This document shows positions 13,557-29,144 of a stretch of 29,955 nucleotides of DNA, one piece after another. Position 1 is the first letter of the stretch. Each line of letters starts with the position of its first letter. Position numbers and translations under genes: made by a program. The stretch lies in IMG/VR virus record IMGVR_UViG_3300042691_018971, positions 1 through 29,955 of that record; one strand, 5' to 3'. The DNA comes from a virus. The notes below the pieces were generated by a model. The model did not search any database. It was given only the letters and a program-made list of their open reading frames with translations, and had not been told where the DNA came from.

Positions 13557-14044
13557 TGCCTGATCCTCATAGGCTTGAGGGCTTTTTCAGGTACAAACCA
13601 AGATTCTTGAGAGCCGCCGTGATTGGCACGGTATTGGGGAAGCATGACATCTTTGCCGCGAACCCAACCTCTGACACAAAACTTTGGGCCATATCCCGTG
13701 ACAAGAACATAGATGTGTTCAGGGTTGTCATCGTCGCGAATGATCAAATCCCAATCGTGCATAGTGCGAAGCCTGACTTGAACATCTTTTCCAAGATCAG
13801 CCTCCTTGAAGTTATTAACGGTTGGGAAGAAGTAAGTGTTTCTTACTTTTGACACGACAAGCTCCCCAAGCGCACCCTCTATGTGAGCGGCGATGGGGCT
13901 CTTCGCGATCTTGAAAAAACGTTCTCCCAGCGCACGATTGGCTGTCTCAGCCTCGTGATGCCTGATGATTCCGATATTCCCGCAATGAAGCATTTCGGAC
14001 AGGGTGAGCGTTACCCACACCCTGCCACCTTCTTGCTCCATCAT
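13553..14044 (-). CDS. Conserved phage hypothetical protein, possible nuclease-like fold
   Basis: A 163-aa protein with the pattern HIEGALGELVVSK...D.GKDVQVR....HDWDLIIRDDD....YVLVTGYGP.F.VRGW.RG (about residues 53-130) that I recall from phage genomes without assigned function. A helix with Glu (GALGE), then Asp and a strand with QVR, is the arrangement seen in PD-(D/E)XK nucleases, though the usual Lys is replaced by Arg. That reading is speculative. The start is in an ATGA overlap with the gcrA-like gene, so the two are probably translated together. Confidence 0.65.
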   Translation of the reverse strand: MMEQEGGRVWVTLTLSEMLHCGNIGIIRHHEAETANRALGERFFKIAKSPIAAHIEGALGELVVSKVRNTYFFPTVNNFKEADLGKDVQVRLRTMHDWDLIIRDDDNPEHIYVLVTGYGPKFCVRGWVRGKDVMLPQYRANHGGSQESWFVPEKALKPMRIRQ

Positions 14045-14550
14045 GATTTGTACCTCTGTCGGCTAGTTGGCTCAACGTAGCAGAGCTTATGATGCTCTTC
14101 GCAATACACGCGCTTGTAAACATCCTTGCCACAGAACATGTGGACAGGAGAGGTTTCATCGCTGACGGCGTATTTGCACATGCCCATATCAAGCTCCATG
14201 AGCGTGACAGGTTCACCGTTATGAATGCGGGTGGGCTTGATAAAGACAGGTTCCTGCCTGTCCCTGTTCTTTATCTTGAAGACAAAAGGAACGCGGCCCG
14301 GTCTGTTTTCAATTGTTGGCTTTAGCCTCTTCTCAACAGGCTTGTAGTCCACAGCCTTTTTTTGGGTCTCAACTCTTTTGGTCTGTACTTTGTAGTCAAC
14401 AAACCCTTGCTTGCGCAGCCTGTTCAGCTTGCCAAGAACGGCGTTTCTCGTTTTGCCAATTTGCTCGCCTATCTGGCTGCCAGTGAATCCCTTTTCCCAC
14501 AGGTCAAGGATCATCTTCTCTTGTTCATTTAGATTGGTAGTGTCGGTCAT
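14041..14550 (-). CDS. gcrA: GcrA-family cell-cycle transcription regulator
   Basis: A 169-aa homologue of GcrA, which in Alphaproteobacteria binds sigma70-RNA polymerase and activates genes with CcrM-methylated GANTC sites. The N-terminal helix-turn-helix shows the family signature (LWEKGFTGSQIGEQIGKTRNAVLGKLNRLRKQGF, about residues 16-49). A basic linker follows, and the C-terminal domain keeps the CKYAVSD...MFCGK...YCEEHHKLCYV pattern (family: CrWPiGdp...FCG...YCehH). The ATG at 14550 is preferred over 14559 because AGGA lies 8 bases upstream. A phage copy could redirect host RNA polymerase or mimic the host cell-cycle state. Strong evidence for an alphaproteobacterial host. Confidence 0.9.
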   Translation of the reverse strand: MTDTTNLNEQEKMILDLWEKGFTGSQIGEQIGKTRNAVLGKLNRLRKQGFVDYKVQTKRVETQKKAVDYKPVEKRLKPTIENRPGRVPFVFKIKNRDRQEPVFIKPTRIHNGEPVTLMELDMGMCKYAVSDETSPVHMFCGKDVYKRVYCEEHHKLCYVEPTSRQRYKS

Positions 14551-14596
14551 AATAGTCATCCTAGAGTGGTGGGCGGCACATGGCCGCCCTTTTCAG

Positions 14597-20630: not shown

Positions 20631-21305
20631 ATGTCATTTCAAGCTATGGCTTGGGCCATTACTCAGGATATTCCGAGAACATCTGAAAAGTTTTTGCTGG
20701 TCATGCTGGCAAACTACGCGGATAAAAGCGGGTATTGTTACCCCTCCATTGAGCGTCTTGCGCTGGAGCTTTCCCAAAACCGAAAAACGGTTATCAAGTC
20801 TATTAAGTCATTGATTTTGGCTGGGTTGCTACGTGACACGGGTCGCCGTGTTGGGCGCACAAAATCAGTTATTGTCTATCAATTAATGGGCATCCCATCT
20901 GCATCTCAATTTCATTATGTCTATCGAATTGAAAACCCTGAAACGGGCGAATATTACATTGGCACGAGGTCAACCAACGTCCTGCCTCAAATGGATGAAT
21001 ATCGCGGAAGTGGTGAGTGGTGCAGAGAAATTGCAGAAAAAAATATTTTTACAGTTCGTGAGATTATAAAAATTTTCCCATCAGCGGAAGAATGTCGAGC
21101 GTACGAAGCACGATTTTTTAGAAGCATGGACTACGATGATGGGCTTTGCAAAAATAAGCAAACGCGATTTCACATGCAGAGGGTTGGTCGCGAGCAGCAT
21201 CAGCAATTTCTAATCAAAATGGAAGCGGATCGTATCAAACTGCCGCCAGAAAAATTTCAATTTCTGTACGGTGGCGAAGATGAAGATGTCCCGTTTTTGG
21301 GCTGA
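20631..21305 (+). CDS. HTH_36-type replication protein fused to a GIY-YIG endonuclease
   Basis: A 224-aa two-part protein. Residues 1-88 are an HTH_36-type winged helix common in phage replication genes (SFQAMAWAITQ...KFLLVMLANYADKSGYCYPSIERLALELSQNRKTVIKSIKSLILAGLL). Residues 96-165 are a GIY-YIG nuclease: VYRIENPETGEYYIG (motif as VYR...YYIG), Y.GSGEW, and E159 in YEARFF as the metal-binding Glu. The nuclease part is encoded by clearly more A/T-rich DNA. In-frame sequence after the stop looks like the lost tail of the HTH protein. The nuclease was therefore probably inserted into the gene. The HTH half likely acts with the helicase and primase downstream. Confidence 0.8.
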   Translation: MSFQAMAWAITQDIPRTSEKFLLVMLANYADKSGYCYPSIERLALELSQNRKTVIKSIKSLILAGLLRDTGRRVGRTKSVIVYQLMGIPSASQFHYVYRIENPETGEYYIGTRSTNVLPQMDEYRGSGEWCREIAEKNIFTVREIIKIFPSAEECRAYEARFFRSMDYDDGLCKNKQTRFHMQRVGREQHQQFLIKMEADRIKLPPEKFQFLYGGEDEDVPFLG

Positions 21306-21365
21306 AGCAGTTCCAATTTTGGATCTAAGCAGTACCAAAACTGGATACCAAACCTAATAGTTTAA
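21306..21365 (+). pseudogene. Probable remnant of the HTH protein's C-terminus
   Basis: Directly after the TGA at 21303-21305, and in the same frame, 19 codons run to a TAA. They read SSSNFGSKQYQNWIPN and four more residues. Ser/Asn/Gly-rich text with KQ.QNW is what I recall for the low-complexity tails of HTH_36 phage proteins. It is best explained as the original end of the gene, cut off by the nuclease insertion. It is short, so chance similarity cannot be excluded. Confidence 0.4.
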
Positions 21366-21381
21366 CCATCCATATAAACCA

Positions 21382-21407
21382 AGATTCCTAGCCAACAGTA
21401 GGAATCT
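21382..21407. repeat. Perfect 9-bp inverted repeat before the helicase gene
   Basis: AGATTCCTA (21382-21390) and TAGGAATCT (21399-21407) flank an 8-base loop. It sits 21 bases before the helicase start, upstream of its AGAGGG ribosome site. There is no T-run, so a terminator is unlikely; an operator or RNA processing site is possible. Confidence 0.55.
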
Positions 21408-21428
21408 CTATAGTAAGGTAGAGGGACT

Positions 21429-22907
21429 ATGAAACTCAGGGACTATCAGGAAGACACCATCGCCAACCTTCGCCGGGCACTGGCAGCGGGTTACAAGCGG
21501 CCAGTCGTTCAGGCTCCAACAGGGGCGGGCAAGACGGTCATCGCGGCGGCTATCATTGAGATGGCGCGGGAGAAGGGCAAGAAGGTCATTTTTGCCGTGC
21601 CAGCTTTGACGCTGATCGATCAGACGGTAGAGCGATTCCGACAAAATGGCATACGGGAGATTGGGGTTATTCAGGGTCAGCACGAAATGACTGACTACAC
21701 CCAGCCGATCCAGATTTGCTCTGTCCAGACTTTGGCACGGAGGAATATCCCAAAGGTCGATCTGGTGATCATCGATGAATGCCACCTGATGTTCAAAATA
21801 TACGACACATGGATGAACCTTCCCCAGTGGAAGGATGTTCCCTTTGTCGGCCTGACAGCGACTCCGTGGTCGCGCGGTATGGGGGCGAAGGGACGCTGGG
21901 ATCACCTGATCGTGGGGACGACCACCAGCGACCTGATTGAGAAAAAGGCTCTGTCAGATTTCAAGGTTTATGCGCCAGCCCATCCAGATCTGTCAGGGGT
22001 CAAGACGGTGGCAGGAGACTATGAGCTTCGCGCTCTTGGCACGGCAATGGATCAGGGCAACCTCGTGGCCGATATTGTCTCGACATGGCTTGAGCGGGGC
22101 CAGAACAGGCCGACGCTCTGCTTCTGTGTCAACAGGGTCCATGCCAAGCATGTTCAGGAGCAATTCAAGCTCGCTGGCGTCGAAGCCGAGTACATGGACG
22201 CCTACACCGATCTGGACAAGCGGGGTCAAATTTTTGACAGGTTCAAGGCAGGGGATGTCAAAGTTCTGTGCAATGTCGGTGTTTTGACAACTGGGTTTGA
22301 TGCAGACGTTCGGTGCATCATTCTGGCCCGGCCTACTAAGTCAGAAATTCTCTACACTCAGATGATTGGTCGCGGCCTCCGCACTGCTAAAGGCAAAGAT
22401 CACTGCCTGATCTTGGATCATTCTGACAGCACGCTGCGGCTTGGTTTTGTCACGGACATTCACCACAACGAACTGGATGACGGGAAGGCAAAGCGGTCTC
22501 TTTCTGAGAAGAAGGTTCCTCTGCCAAAGGAATGCCCCAAGTGTACGTTCGTGAAGCCGGTCAAGGTTCACATCTGCCCTTCGTGTGGTTTTAAGCCAGA
22601 GCCAAAAGTGAAGGTGGAGACTGTCAGCGGCGATCTCTATGAGTTGTCACGAAACAAGTCGATCAAGCCGCATCATTGGGATCACAGCGCCCGGCAGGAG
22701 TTCTACAGTCAGCTTCTCCTTCATGCGCACTTGCGTGGCTACAAGGAGGCTTGGGCCTATTACGCCTTCAAGGATAAGTTCAAGGAGCCGCCTAGTCGGT
22801 CGATCAGGAAGGTTCCTGCCAAAATGATTTCGCCTGTGGTCGATAGCTGGATCAGGGCGCGGAATATCAGAAACGCAAAATCAAAAAATAACGGGAGAGC
22901 CGCATGA
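21429..22907 (+). CDS. Superfamily 2 DEAD/DEAH-type helicase (SSL2-like)
   Basis: A 492-aa ATP-dependent helicase for phage replication or repair. Visible motifs: Q-like start LRDYQEDTI; Walker A APTGAGKT (29-36); Walker B with DECH (116-119); motif III-type TATP (143-146); motif V TTGFD (287-291); motif VI QMIGRGLR (311-318). A four-Cys zinc ribbon follows (C369, C372, C383, C386), then a helical C-terminal region. The order HTH protein, SF2 helicase, zinc/TOPRIM primase is a recurrent phage replication cassette. The stop overlaps the primase start (ATGA). Confidence 0.93.
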   Translation: MKLRDYQEDTIANLRRALAAGYKRPVVQAPTGAGKTVIAAAIIEMAREKGKKVIFAVPALTLIDQTVERFRQNGIREIGVIQGQHEMTDYTQPIQICSVQTLARRNIPKVDLVIIDECHLMFKIYDTWMNLPQWKDVPFVGLTATPWSRGMGAKGRWDHLIVGTTTSDLIEKKALSDFKVYAPAHPDLSGVKTVAGDYELRALGTAMDQGNLVADIVSTWLERGQNRPTLCFCVNRVHAKHVQEQFKLAGVEAEYMDAYTDLDKRGQIFDRFKAGDVKVLCNVGVLTTGFDADVRCIILARPTKSEILYTQMIGRGLRTAKGKDHCLILDHSDSTLRLGFVTDIHHNELDDGKAKRSLSEKKVPLPKECPKCTFVKPVKVHICPSCGFKPEPKVKVETVSGDLYELSRNKSIKPHHWDHSARQEFYSQLLLHAHLRGYKEAWAYYAFKDKFKEPPSRSIRKVPAKMISPVVDSWIRARNIRNAKSKNNGRAA

Positions 22908-23830
22908 GTCACGCGGGCGATATGGCGAGAGGGAATTGGCAGCACCTACTCCCTGCGCTGGGGGTGGATTCCAAGTTCCTTCAAAACAAGCATGGCCCGT
23001 GTCCTATGTGCGGGGGCGCTGACAGGTTTAGGTGGGATGATCAGAACGGGGGCGGTGGCTTCATCTGCAATCAGTGTGGGGCCGGAGACGGGTTTGATCT
23101 GGCGCGGCGTGTCACGGGAAAATCATTCCGAGACATTGCCGATCAGATCTCAATGATCATGGGTCAACCGAAAGATCAGTATCGCAAGGCTTACGATCCA
23201 GAAGAGGAGAGGCAGCGCCGCGCTATGGCTTCTCTCTGGAATGAAGCCGGGTCGATCACCGACTATGAGAACTGCGTTCAGTATTATCTCATGAACCGCT
23301 GCGCCACCTATTGGCGATCCTCTTTCATTCGGGTCCACCGTGAGCGCCGTCTAATGGTTTCCAAAATAGTGTCTCACAGCGACAGGGCAGTGAACCTACA
23401 TATCACCTACCTGACTGATGACGGCAGGAAGGCTGACGTGACACCAGCAAAGAAGGTGATGCCCGGAAAGCTCCCGGATGGCTGCGCGATCAGATTGTCA
23501 AAAGCCGCTCCTGTCATGGGTGTGGCGGAGGGGATTGAGACTGCGATCTCTGCATCTGTCATGTTTGACATCCCGGTGTGGGCCTGTGTCAACGGAACGC
23601 TGCTGTCAAAGTGGATGCCACCTGAAGTGGCGGAGCAGATCACAGTGTTTGGTGACAACGATGCAAACTACACCGGCCATGCCAAAGCATATCATCTGGC
23701 AAACAGGTTAGAGGTTCAGTTCAAGCGGCGTGTCAATGTCATGATCCCGCCAGAGCCCGGCACTGATTGGAATGATTTTCATGTAGCGAACCGCGCAGAG
23801 GATCGACCGATCTTGAGGGTGGTAAAATGA
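22904..23830 (+). CDS. DNA primase with zinc ribbon and TOPRIM domain
   Basis: A 308-aa primase that lays down RNA primers. The N-terminal zinc ribbon has CPMC (C33, C36), the DRFRWDD block and CNQC (C55, C58), and would recognise the priming site. The TOPRIM domain begins with VAEGIETAISA (E209 as catalytic Glu) and has FGDNDAN (D251, D253) for metal binding, followed by GTDWNDFHVA. No helicase domain is fused, so the SF2 helicase upstream or a host helicase must assist. It is the last gene of the rightward replication operon and ends 5 bases before a terminator hairpin. Confidence 0.92.
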   Translation: MSHAGDMARGNWQHLLPALGVDSKFLQNKHGPCPMCGGADRFRWDDQNGGGGFICNQCGAGDGFDLARRVTGKSFRDIADQISMIMGQPKDQYRKAYDPEEERQRRAMASLWNEAGSITDYENCVQYYLMNRCATYWRSSFIRVHRERRLMVSKIVSHSDRAVNLHITYLTDDGRKADVTPAKKVMPGKLPDGCAIRLSKAAPVMGVAEGIETAISASVMFDIPVWACVNGTLLSKWMPPEVAEQITVFGDNDANYTGHAKAYHLANRLEVQFKRRVNVMIPPEPGTDWNDFHVANRAEDRPILRVVK

Positions 23831-24144: not shown

Positions 24145-24399
24145 TCAGTCATCCTTCTTTTCTAAAAACTTCAGCTTTGGCAGTGTGACAGGTTTTCTGG
24201 TCGATCTGAACTCATGATACTGATCGCCTATTTTCTTCTGACTGTGTTCGTCGGCAGCTTGCCAAATTTCTTCGTCCCACAGTTTCTTTTTGCCACGATA
24301 GTTTTTCATAGCGCCTTTGTTTTTGACTTTGCTTTTCTGGATCAGCTTCAAGGCTTCTACTTCGTCATGAGCAAGTCTGAACCGAGCTTTACTAAGCAT
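24145..24399 (-). CDS. Hypothetical basic protein, 84 aa
   Basis: A Lys-rich protein (KLIQKSKVKNKGAMKNYRGKKKLWDEEIW) that could bind nucleic acid; no family recognised. A GAAGGGGGG ribosome site precedes the ATG. Codons 4-7 (AAA GCT CGG TTC) coincide with one copy of the 11-bp repeat of the neighbouring array read in reverse, so the repeat contributes to its N-terminus (SKARF). Confidence 0.55.
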   Translation of the reverse strand: MLSKARFRLAHDEVEALKLIQKSKVKNKGAMKNYRGKKKLWDEEIWQAADEHSQKKIGDQYHEFRSTRKPVTLPKLKFLEKKDD

Positions 24400-24411
24400 A
24401 TGCGCCCCCCT

Positions 24412-24708
24412 TCAGTGATAGTTTTCAAGCACCCAAGTCTTTGCAGACTCCAGAGAGTAGCAGTGCTTGATCTCATGGTGAATAGTCGTCGCGCGATAAA
24501 TTGGCTGCGAACCGTTATTCCTTGAACCGATCTTATCGATATAACCAGCCGGTGAACCGAACCGATTGACGGTCCACATTCCATCTTCGTCTTGAACCAA
24601 GTCGATTGGCTTTGTTTCGGTTTGTTCTCTTGTGATTGTTGTGCGTCGCGTTCCTTCAATGAGAATGCCGCACAGGTCTGCAATGGCGCGGGGGAGTGTG
24701 TCAGTCAT
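24412..24708 (-). CDS. Hypothetical protein, 98 aa
   Basis: A soluble protein with an aromatic beta segment (DEDGMWTVNRFGSPAGYIDKIG) and a helix containing CYSLESAKTWV. The ATG at 24708 overlaps the upstream stop (ATGACTGA); an in-frame TTG two codons earlier is less likely. The gene contains a perfect copy of the array repeat (24524-24534) that encodes part of the KIGS region. Function unknown. Confidence 0.55.
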   Translation of the reverse strand: MTDTLPRAIADLCGILIEGTRRTTITREQTETKPIDLVQDEDGMWTVNRFGSPAGYIDKIGSRNNGSQPIYRATTIHHEIKHCYSLESAKTWVLENYH

Positions 24709-24922
24709 TTTCAATCGCCTTCATTTGCATGTTTTCAATTACAGTGAGTGAGATAGTCCGCTTGATTGGGCCTTGCCCATAAGCCTCGTTCATGTGGTAA
24801 ATTGTCAGCAAGGCTCCGCGCAGCCGCTCTATTTCGTCATGCGCCCCATCAAGAATGCACTGCCGAATGTGAGAGTTGTAACCCTCATAGTTCTCTAGCA
24901 TGTTGAGAATGTCGTCTTTCAT
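24701..24922 (-). CDS. Hypothetical protein, 73 aa
   Basis: First gene after the leftward promoter at 24958-24986, with a GAGG ribosome site. The product is mostly helical (IRQCILDGAHDEIERLRGALLTIYHMNEAYG), with no motif that I recognise. The helix DEIERLRGAL resembles short phage proteins predicted to form coiled coils. Coupled to the next gene by an 8-base overlap. Confidence 0.55.
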   Translation of the reverse strand: MKDDILNMLENYEGYNSHIRQCILDGAHDEIERLRGALLTIYHMNEAYGQGPIKRTISLTVIENMQMKAIEND

Positions 24923-24957
24923 AGTGATTTTCCTCGCTCATTAGTGAGAGCATTATT

Positions 24958-24986
24958 TTCATATCATGGCGTCACGCCATAGTCAA
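24958..24986 (-). promoter_or_regulatory. Leftward promoter with a palindrome in its spacer
   Basis: On the minus strand: TTGACT (24981-24986), 17-bp spacer, TATGAA (24958-24963). Most of the spacer is the perfect inverted repeat ATGGCG-TGA-CGCCAT (24966-24980). A repressor bound there would block RNA polymerase directly. It would drive the four leftward genes 24922-23910. A second small inverted repeat, CTCA(TTAG)TGAG, lies just downstream at 24937-24948. Confidence 0.65.
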
Positions 24987-24994
24987 CTTTCATA

Positions 24995-25144
24995 AACCGA
25001 GCTTTATAGAACCGATCTTGAACCGATCTTGATTCGTGAACCGATCCTATGAACCGATCTTATAGGGGCTCGTGAACCGATCTCGTGAACCGATCTTAAA
25101 GGGGCGCGTGAACCGATCTTATGAACCGACCTTGAACCGATCTT
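24995..25144 (+). repeat. Iteron-like array of GAACCGATCTT
   Basis: Ten copies of an 11-bp repeat (GAACCGATCTT or one- to two-base variants) in the same direction, starting at 24995 (AACCGAGCTT), 25009, 25020, 25038, 25051, 25074, 25087, 25110, 25123 and 25134. From 25038 they form a higher-order 36-bp unit (13 bp then 23 bp, the 23-bp half ending in A(T/A)AGGGG) that repeats almost exactly. Further copies lie at 24379, 24524, 25277, 25325, 25339, 25351 and 25374. The region codes for nothing that I can see. Likeliest roles: replication origin iterons or a multi-site operator. Confidence 0.85.
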
Positions 25145-25159
25145 AAAGGGGGAATGACA

Positions 25160-25363
25160 ATGGCAGATGAGCTTGTGATGTGGACCGTGTTCGCGGTCAT
25201 TCTTGGCGTTCCGGCTGTCCTGATTGGCTGGGCCATTGGCAAGGCGGCCTATGACAACCGCAACGCTGACACTGATGAACCGACCTTATGGGGCTGTCAT
25301 GACATCGACCAGCGGGCGGCTCATGAACCGACCTTTAAGAACCGACCCTTGAACCAACCCTAA
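25160..25363 (+). CDS. Small membrane protein with repeat-derived tail
   Basis: A 67-aa protein. The N-terminal half is one membrane helix (MWTVFAVILGVPAVLIGWAIGKAAY); the rest is a polar tail. The ATG at 25160 is favoured because AAAGGGGG, itself the end of the last array repeat, sits 7 bases before it (25154 is an alternative). The tail DEPTLWG...HEPTFKNRPLNQP is translated from four further copies of the array repeat, so the array has spread into or shaped the gene. It is the only rightward gene between two leftward operons. Function unknown. Confidence 0.6.
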   Translation: MADELVMWTVFAVILGVPAVLIGWAIGKAAYDNRNADTDEPTLWGCHDIDQRAAHEPTFKNRPLNQP

Positions 25364-25402
25364 CCCGTGACATGAACCGAGCTTTAATCGTGTCATGACA
25401 CG
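25295..25402. promoter_or_regulatory. Paired TGTCATGACA palindromes
   Basis: The 10-bp palindrome TGTCATGACA occurs at 25295-25304 and at 25391-25400, the second inside a perfect 14-bp palindrome CGTGTCATGACACG (25389-25402). The first is within the small membrane-protein gene. Related TGACATGACACG text appears near 25600. They look like binding sites for a dimeric regulator. Confidence 0.4.
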
Positions 25403-25896: not shown

Positions 25897-26082
25897 CTAG
25901 CTATGGCAATAGCCGTCTGTCTCAATTGCAAGCCACATTCCGGCCCACTGGATGACTAAAGCCCCGTCCCCACAAATCATGGCACGGGCTTTGCGGCGGA
26001 ACGATAGGAAGGATTCGCTTGGGGCTTCGCTCCGGCTGTAAACACGGAACAGGGCGCGTGATTGTGCTTTCGTGATTTTCAT
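25897..26082 (-). CDS. Conserved small protein (GALVIQWAGMWLAIETDGY type)
   Basis: A 61-aa protein of a pattern that I recall from phages and plasmids: MKITKAQSRALFRVYSR...SFLSFRRKARAMICGDGALVIQWAGMWLAIETDGYCHS. The function is unknown. Basic N-terminus, then a beta hairpin with Trp and aromatic residues. AGAGGA lies about 9 bases before the ATG. Confidence 0.7.
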   Translation of the reverse strand: MKITKAQSRALFRVYSRSEAPSESFLSFRRKARAMICGDGALVIQWAGMWLAIETDGYCHS

Positions 26083-26096
26083 GGCGTGGATTCCTC

Positions 26097-26318
26097 TTAT
26101 CGCTTCGAATCTTCGGCATATGCGCGGAACATGGCCGCAAGCCCCGACACGGCCCTAAAATCGACGGGATCACGCGCGGCACGTGCTTCGGCGTCTAAGG
26201 CGTCCGCCACCCGCACAAGCGTTGCGGCGGGATAGATTCCGGCCTTTGCGGACAGGTCCAGTGCAAGGTGATAAAGATACGCATCAAGGCCCGTGAGGGC
26301 GTCCCCGTGCTTAGGCAT
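26097..26318 (-). CDS. Hypothetical helical protein, 73 aa
   Basis: A protein of mainly alpha-helical composition (GLDAYLYHLALDLSAKAGIYPAATLVRVADALDAEARAA). Its start KHGDALTG resembles the KHGDALTA segment inside the AAA+ ATPase of the same operon, though the similarity is short. The AGGAG ribosome site lies in the last codons of the preceding 55-aa gene, so the two are coupled. Confidence 0.6.
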   Translation of the reverse strand: MPKHGDALTGLDAYLYHLALDLSAKAGIYPAATLVRVADALDAEARAARDPVDFRAVSGLAAMFRAYAEDSKR

Positions 26319-26321
26319 GGC

Positions 26322-26489
26322 CTAGACTCCTTTTCGTTTGGATTTGCCATGAGTCCACATGGCCGGAATAGAAACGGCCCTGCGGCCTTTACGGGGGCCG
26401 CTGGCGGCCTTTTCGGCGTAGCTTGGCGGCGGGATAGCGGGGCGGCCTATCAAGCGGACAGGCGGCCCTTTTAGGGGCTTTTCTGGCAT
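26322..26489 (-). CDS. Short basic Pro/Gly-rich protein, 55 aa
   Basis: A 55-aa product (MPEKPLKGPPVRLIGRPAIP... ending MWTHGKSKRKGV), strongly basic and Pro/Gly-rich, likely disordered; nucleic-acid or protein binding is possible. AGGAG lies 8 bases before the ATG, and its end provides the ribosome site for the next gene, which supports it being real. No family recognised. Confidence 0.55.
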   Translation of the reverse strand: MPEKPLKGPPVRLIGRPAIPPPSYAEKAASGPRKGRRAVSIPAMWTHGKSKRKGV

Positions 26490-26531
26490 TGGTTAGACTC
26501 CTAGTAGGGGGCGCGTCATAAGCCCCGCGAT

Positions 26532-26555
26532 AGGGGCGGCCCGTAGGCCACCCCT
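26532..26555 (-). promoter_or_regulatory. GC-rich hairpin with UACG tetraloop downstream of the VWA-like gene
   Basis: AGGGGCGGCC, loop CGTA, GGCCACCCCT: 10-bp arms with one mismatch. In the leftward transcript the loop is C(UACG)G, a very stable UNCG-type tetraloop. It lies 12 bases past the stop of the VWA-like gene. No T-run follows, so it may protect or process the mRNA, or partly terminate, lowering expression of the small genes beyond. Confidence 0.5.
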
Positions 26556-26566
26556 ACTGGCGGGAC

Positions 26567-27430
26567 TCACGCCGCTTCGGCGGGGGTGCAATCCATCTCC
26601 GCAAGCTTGGATTCGATCCATGCTTCTGGATTTTTGTGGATTTGATCGTCCGAATGCGCGGCGGGGACGCAAAGCATGTCCGACACGTGGGGGAAGGCGT
26701 CCGCAATCATGTCCCGGAACATTGTCCGCGATATGGTATGAGACCCATAAGGCCAGTGCCCGTCAAAGCCGTTCCGGGCGCGTGAAAGGCCATAGCATAG
26801 CTGGCGGGGGAAGGCCGCCCCTACCATGACAAAGGCCGCCCGTGCCAGATCCAGCGGGGCCGTCTCAATACGCGCCAGAGTCACACTGGCATTTTTGCGA
26901 CTGTCCGCATCCGTTGCGCATCCCGCCCATAGCTCGACGGGACGCCGCGCGGACAGAATGCGGACAAGCGCCAGAATAGCTGCCCCCCGCCGCTCCAAAT
27001 CCGAAGCATCGATATTGCTGGATGACGTTAGGTCAACAATCACAGCCAGCGGGGCCGCCGCATCCTGAATCTTGATGCGGCGGCGCATGGCAAGGGGATG
27101 ACCCGCCAAAAAGGCCGGGACGTTTGGCACGGCCCCTGTCACGTCATCCACCCACGCGCGGCGGGGGGCTTCAAAGCCGAAGCGTTCAAAGCGTGACATA
27201 AGGGCATCGGACGGGGCGACACGATCCAAATCCCCCATGTTAGACCGGCGGACGGCTTCGGCGGGGGAAAGCCCCCCCGCCCATGATTCCGCCCCTCTGA
27301 CACGTCCGCCAGCAAGGGCGGCCTCCGCCAGCGCACCGGGAGAGTCAAAAAGGTGAATGTGAGTCGTGGCTTTGCGGCCCAATGCTTTTTGAATTGAGGC
27401 CGGGACGGGGCGCGCGATTGTGCGGGACAT
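26567..27430 (-). CDS. VWA-like partner of the AAA+ ATPase (DUF7192-type)
   Basis: A 287-aa protein. It carries the block W.DDVTGAVPNVPAFLAGHPLAMRRR (about residues 93-118), then a strand with PLAVIVDLTSSSNI (D133), resembling a VWA metal site (DxSxS, here DLTSS), and RGAAILALVRILSARRPVELWAG, the helix and strand that follow it in VWA domains. I recall similar phage proteins (DUF7192) beside MoxR-like ATPases. MoxR/CobS ATPases act with VWA/CobT-type partners to remodel or load metal into target proteins, so a two-component chaperone is inferred; the target is unknown. It starts in a TAATG overlap with the ATPase gene. Confidence 0.6.
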   Translation of the reverse strand: MSRTIARPVPASIQKALGRKATTHIHLFDSPGALAEAALAGGRVRGAESWAGGLSPAEAVRRSNMGDLDRVAPSDALMSRFERFGFEAPRRAWVDDVTGAVPNVPAFLAGHPLAMRRRIKIQDAAAPLAVIVDLTSSSNIDASDLERRGAAILALVRILSARRPVELWAGCATDADSRKNASVTLARIETAPLDLARAAFVMVGAAFPRQLCYGLSRARNGFDGHWPYGSHTISRTMFRDMIADAFPHVSDMLCVPAAHSDDQIHKNPEAWIESKLAEMDCTPAEAA

Positions 27431-28821
27431 TAGCGGCCCCCTTCAACAATAGCGGCCTGATCGGCGGACAGGTTTGCCAGATAGGTGGCGGCGGCGGCTT
27501 CGGCTTCCGTCATCCCGTTGGCAATCAAGGCCGCACCGGCTTGCGATGCGCGGGGGTCAATAATCACCTTAAGGCCAGCGGCCCTTGCACGTTCACGCGC
27601 CGCAATCACGCGCCGCGCAAAGGATTCATTCCCTGAAATGGCAATCTCAAGGGCCGTGTCATAATCCCAAGCGATGCGGACGGGGAAGCGTGACAAGAAG
27701 GCCGCATCGATCTTGCTCCGCCCCACATAATCAGCCGTTGCGCCAAGCCCCCACGTGTTCGCGCTGGCAAGGATTATGCAATCGGGATGACGCTCCACAC
27801 GCTTGTGCGGGAACGTGGCAAAGCCGTTGGCGAGGGCCGCATTTAGGGCCAGCAAGGCCGCATTGTCCGCCCCGTCGACTTCGTCAAACATGTACACGCC
27901 GCCCTTTTCATAAGCCTCCCAAAAGGGCGTGGCATGATACGTGCCAGCGGCATCGATAAAGCCCAACAATTCATGGGGCATTGATATTGCGCCATTCAAT
28001 TGAAAGGGAAGGCCAAGAGCGTCCGCCAGCATCTTGCCAGCATGAGTCTTGCCCGATCCGGCGGGGCCGCTAATCCAGATATTGGGGGCAAAGCCGTTCG
28101 CCATGCGGGACGTGGCGGCTTTCAAGAGCGTGGCAAATTTAGGATGACGGTGGCCTTTCAATTCCCGCAATTCGCCGTCGAATCCTTTCAATTCAATGCG
28201 GACGCTTGGGACGCTTGCGAGGGCGGCCTTGATGCGCGAGTCGACAATCTCCGCGATTTGTTCCGCATTCACGGCTTGCCCCGCAATGCTGGCAAGGAGG
28301 GCGGCCAATTGCGAAGCCGTGTCGCCATTGGGGGCGGCGGCCTTCGGGGCTTCGGCGGCTTCTTTTATCGCGCCCCATGCGGACTCGCTGGCGGCTTGCG
28401 CTTTGCCTTCGGATGCGGCGCGGCGCTTATATTCCGCGCGGCCTAGCATGTCGAAAACCGTGTCAAATTGTTTGGCCGTCAGGGCGTCCCCGTGCTTTGC
28501 CCCGTCCGCAAATATGTCGGCCAGATAGTCGCATTGTGCTTCGGACAGGTACGCCGCTAATTCGGATGCGCGAGCCTTGAGCGAGGCCGAAGCATGGGGG
28601 CGCGGCTTCGGGACAAAGCCCCCGCTACGCTTTCCGCCCTTCGGCGTCCCGAATATGTCAAACGCAATGCCAAAGGCCTTTGCGGCCTCTTCTAAATCGT
28701 CAACGGAAAGGGAAGAGGAGGAGAGGCCATTGCGCTGGCGATAAGCATCCCAAAGCGGGGATGACGTAACAGCGGCGCGAAGGGCGGAACGATTGTCAGC
28801 AGTGTAGCGATATTGTGCCAT
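27430..28821 (-). CDS. MoxR/CobS-like AAA+ ATPase
   Basis: A 463-aa ATPase. The ATG at 28821 is chosen because GAGGA lies 7 bases upstream. Residues 1-200 are a helical, Ala-rich N-terminal region with no known domain. The AAA+ core follows: Walker A GPAGSGKT (about 252-259), Walker B GGVYMFDEVDGAD (about 307-319), sensor 1 ILASANT (about 350-356), and GRSKIDAAFLSRFP with the arginine finger, all typical of the MoxR/CobS clade. It probably forms a hexamer that remodels a substrate with the VWA-like protein encoded next. First gene of a distinct G+C-rich leftward operon. Confidence 0.88.
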   Translation of the reverse strand: MAQYRYTADNRSALRAAVTSSPLWDAYRQRNGLSSSSLSVDDLEEAAKAFGIAFDIFGTPKGGKRSGGFVPKPRPHASASLKARASELAAYLSEAQCDYLADIFADGAKHGDALTAKQFDTVFDMLGRAEYKRRAASEGKAQAASESAWGAIKEAAEAPKAAAPNGDTASQLAALLASIAGQAVNAEQIAEIVDSRIKAALASVPSVRIELKGFDGELRELKGHRHPKFATLLKAATSRMANGFAPNIWISGPAGSGKTHAGKMLADALGLPFQLNGAISMPHELLGFIDAAGTYHATPFWEAYEKGGVYMFDEVDGADNAALLALNAALANGFATFPHKRVERHPDCIILASANTWGLGATADYVGRSKIDAAFLSRFPVRIAWDYDTALEIAISGNESFARRVIAARERARAAGLKVIIDPRASQAGAALIANGMTEAEAAAATYLANLSADQAAIVEGGR

Positions 28822-28865
28822 AGGTGAGTCCTCATAGTGAATCGGGGGCATGATTGCCCCGCCCC

Positions 28866-28894
28866 TTTATGCCATTGCGCCATATATATGCCAA
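28866..28894 (-). promoter_or_regulatory. Leftward promoter of the AAA+/VWA-like operon
   Basis: On the minus strand: TTGGCA (28889-28894), 17-bp spacer, CATAAA (28866-28871). The spacer holds ATATGGCG and GGCGCAATGGC. A near-copy of GCCATTGCGCCA (28871-28882) occurs 36 bp away as GGCATTGCGCCA (28907-28918), placing one likely operator over the promoter and one just upstream. Confidence 0.55.
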
Positions 28895-29144
28895 GCGATT
28901 TGTCGTGGCATTGCGCCACTAAATTAACAGGGGGGCTTGTGCTATCATGGGGCGAGGCGGCAGGGTTGTGCCGCATGGCAGAACGTCAGCTAAGGGCCAT
29001 AGGAAGGCCACTGACTGGCTTTATGCCATGTCGGGTGTAATCATCCCGGAGGGGTCCGACTTTGCCGCCTGTGACGTTTTCATGTTTTGTTCTCATGTGG
29101 TATGAGACAAAAATCCTATCGATCGGCTTGGCAAGGGGCGGGAC
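28895..29144. other. Non-coding control region before small terminase
   Basis: No gene that I can support. A 52-codon frame from 28947 and a 21-codon frame from 28975 are open on the plus strand but lack ribosome sites and recognisable products. It contains the second TTGCGCCA element, a TATCAT (-10-like, 28943-28948) without a convincing -35, and the hairpin at 29085-29112. Being next to the small terminase, it may include the packaging site. Confidence 0.4.
29085..29112. repeat. Inverted repeat upstream of small terminase
   Basis: TTTTGT-T-CTCAT, loop GTGGT, ATGAGACAAAA: 11 paired positions with a single bulged T. It lies 32 bases before the small-terminase ATG. An operator or a packaging-site element is possible; it is not a canonical terminator. 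Confidence 0.5.

Follow-up and report, generated by a model that had tools for sequence, protein, structure and literature searches.

Clusters of direct repeats serve packaging and partition roles in phages, and in alphaproteobacteria the LexA (SOS) boxes are pairs of the form GAAC-N7-GAAC. Iteron origins are recognised by direct repeats beside replication genes, by a regular helical spacing of ~20-22 bp and by repeats that co-vary with their initiator. Cluster A mycobacteriophages have stoperators throughout their genomes, and the immunity repressor reads them (PMC9283540, PMC6550527). T7 primase is reported to start at 5'-(G/T)2GTC (PMC12839067). Here we set beside these systems an array of short direct repeats in a 29,955-base window, by which we mean the whole stretch of viral DNA that was analysed, together with the arrays of related phages. 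Our leading reading, to which we give somewhat less than an even chance, is that the array is a clustered operator or activator array for a divergent promoter region; it is probably not a replication origin.

The motif of the array, TGAACCGA-N-CTT, is present in 17 copies, or 20 if near variants are counted, and every one of them is on the + strand, in the interval 24379-25384. Its core GAACCGA is invariant, with 17 occurrences on one strand within ~1 kb and none elsewhere on either strand of the record. The most frequent 7-mer in the window is found 17 times within 1 kb, while none of 100 dinucleotide shuffles gave more than 7, and matches to the 11-mer with up to two mismatches number 26, against 7.4 +/- 2.5 expected. 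As originally predicted, ten same-direction copies occupy a 150-bp non-coding stretch; they start on the + strand at 24994 (AAACCGAGCTT), 25009, 25020, 25038, 25051, 25074, 25087, 25110, 25123 and 25134. The predicted spacings from 25038 onwards (13, 23, 13, 23, 13 and 11 bp) and the 36-bp unit were likewise reproduced, with TRF returning 2.8 copies of a 36-bp unit at 25034-25133 and a second repeat search the same 36-bp family. The extent of 24995-25144 that had been assigned to the array corresponds to a real block but is incomplete, as the motif recurs outside it at 24379-24594 and 25277-25374 (Table 1).

Alignment of the copies yields seven fixed positions, a free position 8 and then CTT, between flanks of low information. 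Nine of the 20 copies lie inside the flanking genes, in different reading frames by their coordinates, which argues for selection on the DNA (or RNA) and not on a peptide. Spacing is irregular, 11-23 bp and up to 143 bp, with no helical phasing. The combination of a seven-base core, a free eighth base, uninformative flanks, irregular spacing and in-gene copies is the mark of a recognised site, and the same constraint on core, free position, flanks and frames speaks against plain slippage.

The dense block lies between the start of a leftward ORF (24922) and that of a rightward ORF (25154), ~1.2 kb beyond the primase stop. The position first proposed for it, by the replication block and between a leftward promoter and a rightward gene, holds: P_L, the ORF at 25154 and the primase were all located. 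On its left are the replication block (winged-HTH initiator-type protein, helicase and primase) and four small leftward ORFs; on its right are the small rightward ORF, for which several relatives have similar short ORFs at the equivalent place, leftward ORFs, one of them for an AAA ATPase, and the small terminase gene. The AAA ATPase segment (26000-29000) has ~60% G+C, compared with ~50% elsewhere in the window, and is coding sequence with repetitive word use. The first array copy lies 8 bp upstream of P_L, a promoter absent from a stricter scan because its -10 box is without the final T. The palindrome in the P_L spacer is probably a repressor operator. A fold search with gp24 gave no match in the PDB. 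The phage-encoded GcrA-type regulator, homologues of which occur in many relatives, suggests an alphaproteobacterial host.

Table 1. Positions of the array and of neighbouring features in the window
Feature	Position	Strand	Remarks
GcrA-type cell-cycle regulator	14041-14559		Pfam PF07750, E 1e-19
Winged-HTH initiator-type protein with GIY-YIG part	20631..21305	+	Array similarity does not track this protein
Two 22-bp repeats (CAGTTCCAATTTTGGATCTAAG, CAGTACCAAAACTGGATACCAA)	21308..21351	+	Just behind the HTH gene; candidate initiator-binding origin
Primase	22904..23830	+	T7-type zinc ribbon, Toprim; query for collecting relatives
Left outliers	24379..24600	+	Motif at 24379, 24524, 24554, 24559 (GAACCAA at 24594), within leftward ORFs
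gp24	24412..24714	-	Conserved 100-aa protein of the P_L operon; array copies within the gene in several phages
First ORF of the P_L operon	24701..24922	-	73 aa, no family found
Leftward promoter P_L	24958..24986	-	TTGACT (24986-24981), 17-bp spacer, TATGAA (24963-24958); layout recurs in relatives
15-bp palindrome ATGGCGTCACGCCAT	24966..24980	.	In the P_L spacer; palindromes likewise placed in several relatives
Dense block	24994..25144	+	Ten copies of the 11-mer GAACCGATCTT or close variants, 36-bp higher-order unit, non-coding
Small ORF	25154..25363	+	One hydrophobic stretch (read from sequence); array copies in 3' part, in two frames
Right outliers	25277..25384	+	25277, 25325, 25339 (GAACCAA at 25351) within the small rightward ORF; 25374 behind it

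Relatives were gathered by their primase, first 11 and then 80 viral loci, plus 13 loci in bacterial genome records. A megablast of the sequence matched no close named phage, and tblastn gave only matches below 60% for primase and helicase and two weak matches for gp24. Nearly all relatives with gp24 and enough flank carry a dense short repeat at the equivalent spot, mostly on one strand; in L032 and L062 an array was looked for and none was seen. The equivalent site in relatives was where the original prediction had staked its claim, and arrays are indeed present there, though without a common motif. Scanning for the motif of the window brought in only single matches (L115-L118), and units differ by lineage: GACCGA, TGACCAAT, AACCAACC, TTGGTCCA, CCACC[AG]A (e.g., CCACCAA), TGGTCA, GTGGCA and others. 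Further phages with GAACCGATCTT pairs (L001-L011) were set aside as unrelated viral contigs with mostly coding repeats, their 27-bp-period 11-mer being most likely a coding nine-residue repeat.

Beneath this variety lies a short common element. Of the 31 arrays, 27 are enriched in ACC[AG] or its complement and 22 in GACC (GACC/GGTC), with L021 and L028 lacking the core, and ACCRA is the most often clustered of 512 NNN[R/Y]N patterns (17 of 25 loci), though such locus counts are non-independent because the loci are related by descent. As a promoter-side array would have it, the sites adjoin a promoter: the distance between the best leftward -35 box and the first array copy is at most 8 bp in 19/31 loci and at most 40 bp in 27/31, proximity figures that are favoured by hand-set array edges. 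The distance from the array to the start of gp24 varies widely; the contact with the promoter stays.

Functionless repeats, expanding through slippage or local copying where the genome tolerates them, would account for part of this picture. Copy number shifts between the close relatives L033, L035 and L037, some arrays are pure 4-bp tandems (e.g., GACCGACC, CCAACCAA), and the motif differs between near relatives while no compared protein follows. On the other hand, what the window copies have in common is a 12-bp site, not flanks or spacing; they are separated by up to 600 bp and occur inside genes. An array occupies the locus in nearly every relative, with the ACC core in common. We regard neutral repetition as unlikely.

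Other repeats occur in the same neighbourhood. A second family of palindromic CCCAAAATGGG-like words lies to the right of the array in L031, L049, L053, L060 and L063. Roughly 5-7 kb to the right of the primase, near or behind the small terminase gene, there are further short repeat clusters, of TGGGTCCC in L021, L040, L041 and L049 and of AACTAAAC or its complement in L033, L035, L037 and L059. In L021 (5420-6210) and L027 (5660-6510), ~800 bp of apparently non-coding, partly alignable sequence has GG every 5-6 bases (GGCAGGCAAGGTTCGGG...).

The HTH protein encoded at 20631 had been put forward as the initiator that binds the array, which would make the array an initiator-type origin. Neither proposal finds support in the comparison across 25 loci: array similarity does not follow the similarity of the HTH protein (Mantel r 0.10, p 0.07), whereas that of the gap behind the HTH gene, where the 22-bp repeat element lies, does (Mantel r 0.58, p 0.0005). 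The HTH proteins of L028 and L043 are 98% identical and their arrays unrelated, and the same holds for L056 and L058; conversely, L026, L027 and L030 have GACCGA arrays in common and three different HTH proteins. One exception to the tracking of the gap is the pair L033/L037, with similar HTH proteins and dissimilar gaps. In relatives the protein has no GIY-YIG-type part and is often only 88-93 aa long; the version in the window is possibly a homing-endonuclease fusion.

Several relatives have 21-22-bp-spaced repeats in this gap, with GGGTCTAATAGACCCCC twice in L043 and CAGGGTCTATTAGA twice in both L056 and L058, and further along many gaps have ACCTATCA-like words and CTAGCCA. The layout of the window, which combines the 22-bp repeats with a ACCTAATAG word and CTAGCCA at 21308-21428, is conserved in relatives. 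Since the gap tracks the HTH protein and the array does not, the element at 21308-21351, ~3.7 kb from the array, appears on sequence grounds to be the more likely candidate for the origin proper. The array could still be an origin or origin-accessory element of iteron type, recognised by a different initiator from the 20631 HTH protein, as it adjoins the replication genes and consists of iteron-like direct repeats with P_L alongside. We consider this doubtful, given that the array does not track the winged-HTH protein while the 22-bp element does, that its spacing is irregular, and that GC skew, with no consistent switch, does not point to an origin at the array.

Which protein might read the array was approached by asking which one varies with its motif. 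Within the compared region of +/-10 kb, variants of Cro-like and XRE-like proteins do not follow the motif. The winged-HTH protein was rejected on close pairs with different motifs and distant pairs with the same motif, and gp24 on L021 and L024, where it is similar (0.83) and the arrays are unrelated. The GcrA homologue has a similar helix across motif groups and is also found in relatives in which no array was detected. The small terminase was rejected as well, as the AACCAACC and TGACCAAT groups each combine the same motif with different terminase HTH types. Among the compared phage proteins, none of these appears to explain the array motif.

The terminase result also bears on the array as a packaging (pac) or partition site, a role that the small terminase gene ~4 kb to the right would make attractive. 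Same-motif phages with different small-terminase HTH types argue against packaging, and no ParA/ParB-like protein was recognised among the scanned proteins, which argues against partition; we therefore hold this to be the least probable of the readings considered here.

The primase is a more complex case. Array similarity correlates with primase similarity (r 0.42), the phage primase has a T7-type zinc ribbon, GACC/GGTC is the tetramer enriched in most arrays (22/31, with ACC[AG] in 27/31), and T7 primase is reported to start at 5'-(G/T)2GTC (PMC12839067). The arrays might be places at which the phage's own T7-type primase begins synthesis in one direction (template YGGT/GGTC, primers from ACC). 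Against this, the L027 and L028 primases are 94% identical and their arrays differ, with L028 (like L021) having no core; five loci have the strand reversed relative to P_L; the window units are mostly GGTT and not GGTC; and gp24 correlates equally well, both values falling at r 0.4-0.5, as physical linkage would give. Priming at the array is accordingly improbable. A looser version, in which dense one-strand repetition around an ACC/GGT core is the cis-acting feature read by a conserved replication factor (e.g., the primase) and the rest of the motif is free to turn over between phages that keep the same DNA-binding proteins, seems to us slightly less improbable, while still unlikely.

Action at the RNA level, for instance if a rightward transcript bound a protein or loaded Rho at the array, would fit the single orientation of the copies and the presence of the ACC form in the sense strand of the small ORF in most phages that have it. 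It fits poorly with the window copies inside gp24, which sit to the left of any rightward promoter for the small ORF, and with arrays that are not uniformly C-rich in base composition. Folding is unremarkable on both strands, and searches for RNA structure, Rfam families and tRNAs found nothing. We judge action in RNA to be highly improbable.

Returning to the operator or activator array, we infer that it binds protein and regulates P_L, and that the binder may be either a host factor or a protein that the phage encodes beyond the compared region. The TGAACCGANCTT sites would be asymmetric DNA targets of a sequence-specific protein; the dense block, directly upstream of the -35 box, would serve as a platform for control of the divergent promoter region of P_L and the small membrane-type gene, and the outlying copies on both sides would increase occupancy in the neighbourhood. 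A separate repressor site would be formed by the palindrome in the P_L spacer, and the origin proper, more likely, by the 22-bp repeat element at 21308-21351. Several points count against this reading. A large part of the array falls within gp24 in L027 and L043, on the downstream side of P_L, and in L021 and L024 most of the array follows the small ORF; its strand is reversed relative to P_L in L034, L053, L056, L060 and L063; spacing is without helical phasing; and no protein in our sequence comparisons appears to be the binder.

Should the array prove to be a platform for binding, exchanging it between relatives would be a way to find the binder, since nature has already supplied over eight variants of the motif at a single position in this clade. 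Two repeat elements that are easy to confuse are also told apart by our comparison: the origin-like element tracks its initiator, and the promoter-side element does not. What we find notable is the rapid turnover of the motif at a fixed locus, in direct-repeat binding arrays of an otherwise familiar type; the open-access literature yielded no description of such an array.

Among known systems, LexA boxes are matched by two 11-bp-spaced pairs in the window (GAACN7GAAC at 25009 and 25123), but the remaining copies are spaced otherwise and GAACN7GAAC is absent from the array blocks of relatives, so we rejected the array as a set of SOS boxes. With the recognition sites of T7 primase (PMC12839067), most of the arrays share a GGTC/ACC core alongside a primase with a T7-type zinc ribbon; they differ in their longer, lineage-specific units and in that near-identical primases go with different arrays. 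Like the iteron origins of plasmids and lambda-type phages, the array gathers several short direct repeats in a small region by replication genes, but it departs from them in its irregular spacing, its in-gene copies and a motif that does not co-vary with an initiator-type protein. Stoperators, finally, are dispersed where the window copies all fit into 1 kb, and the compared +/-10 kb yielded no repressor that tracks the motif; yet the array resembles them (PMC9283540, PMC6550527) in its asymmetric, short, one-orientation sites and in a motif that varies between related phages.
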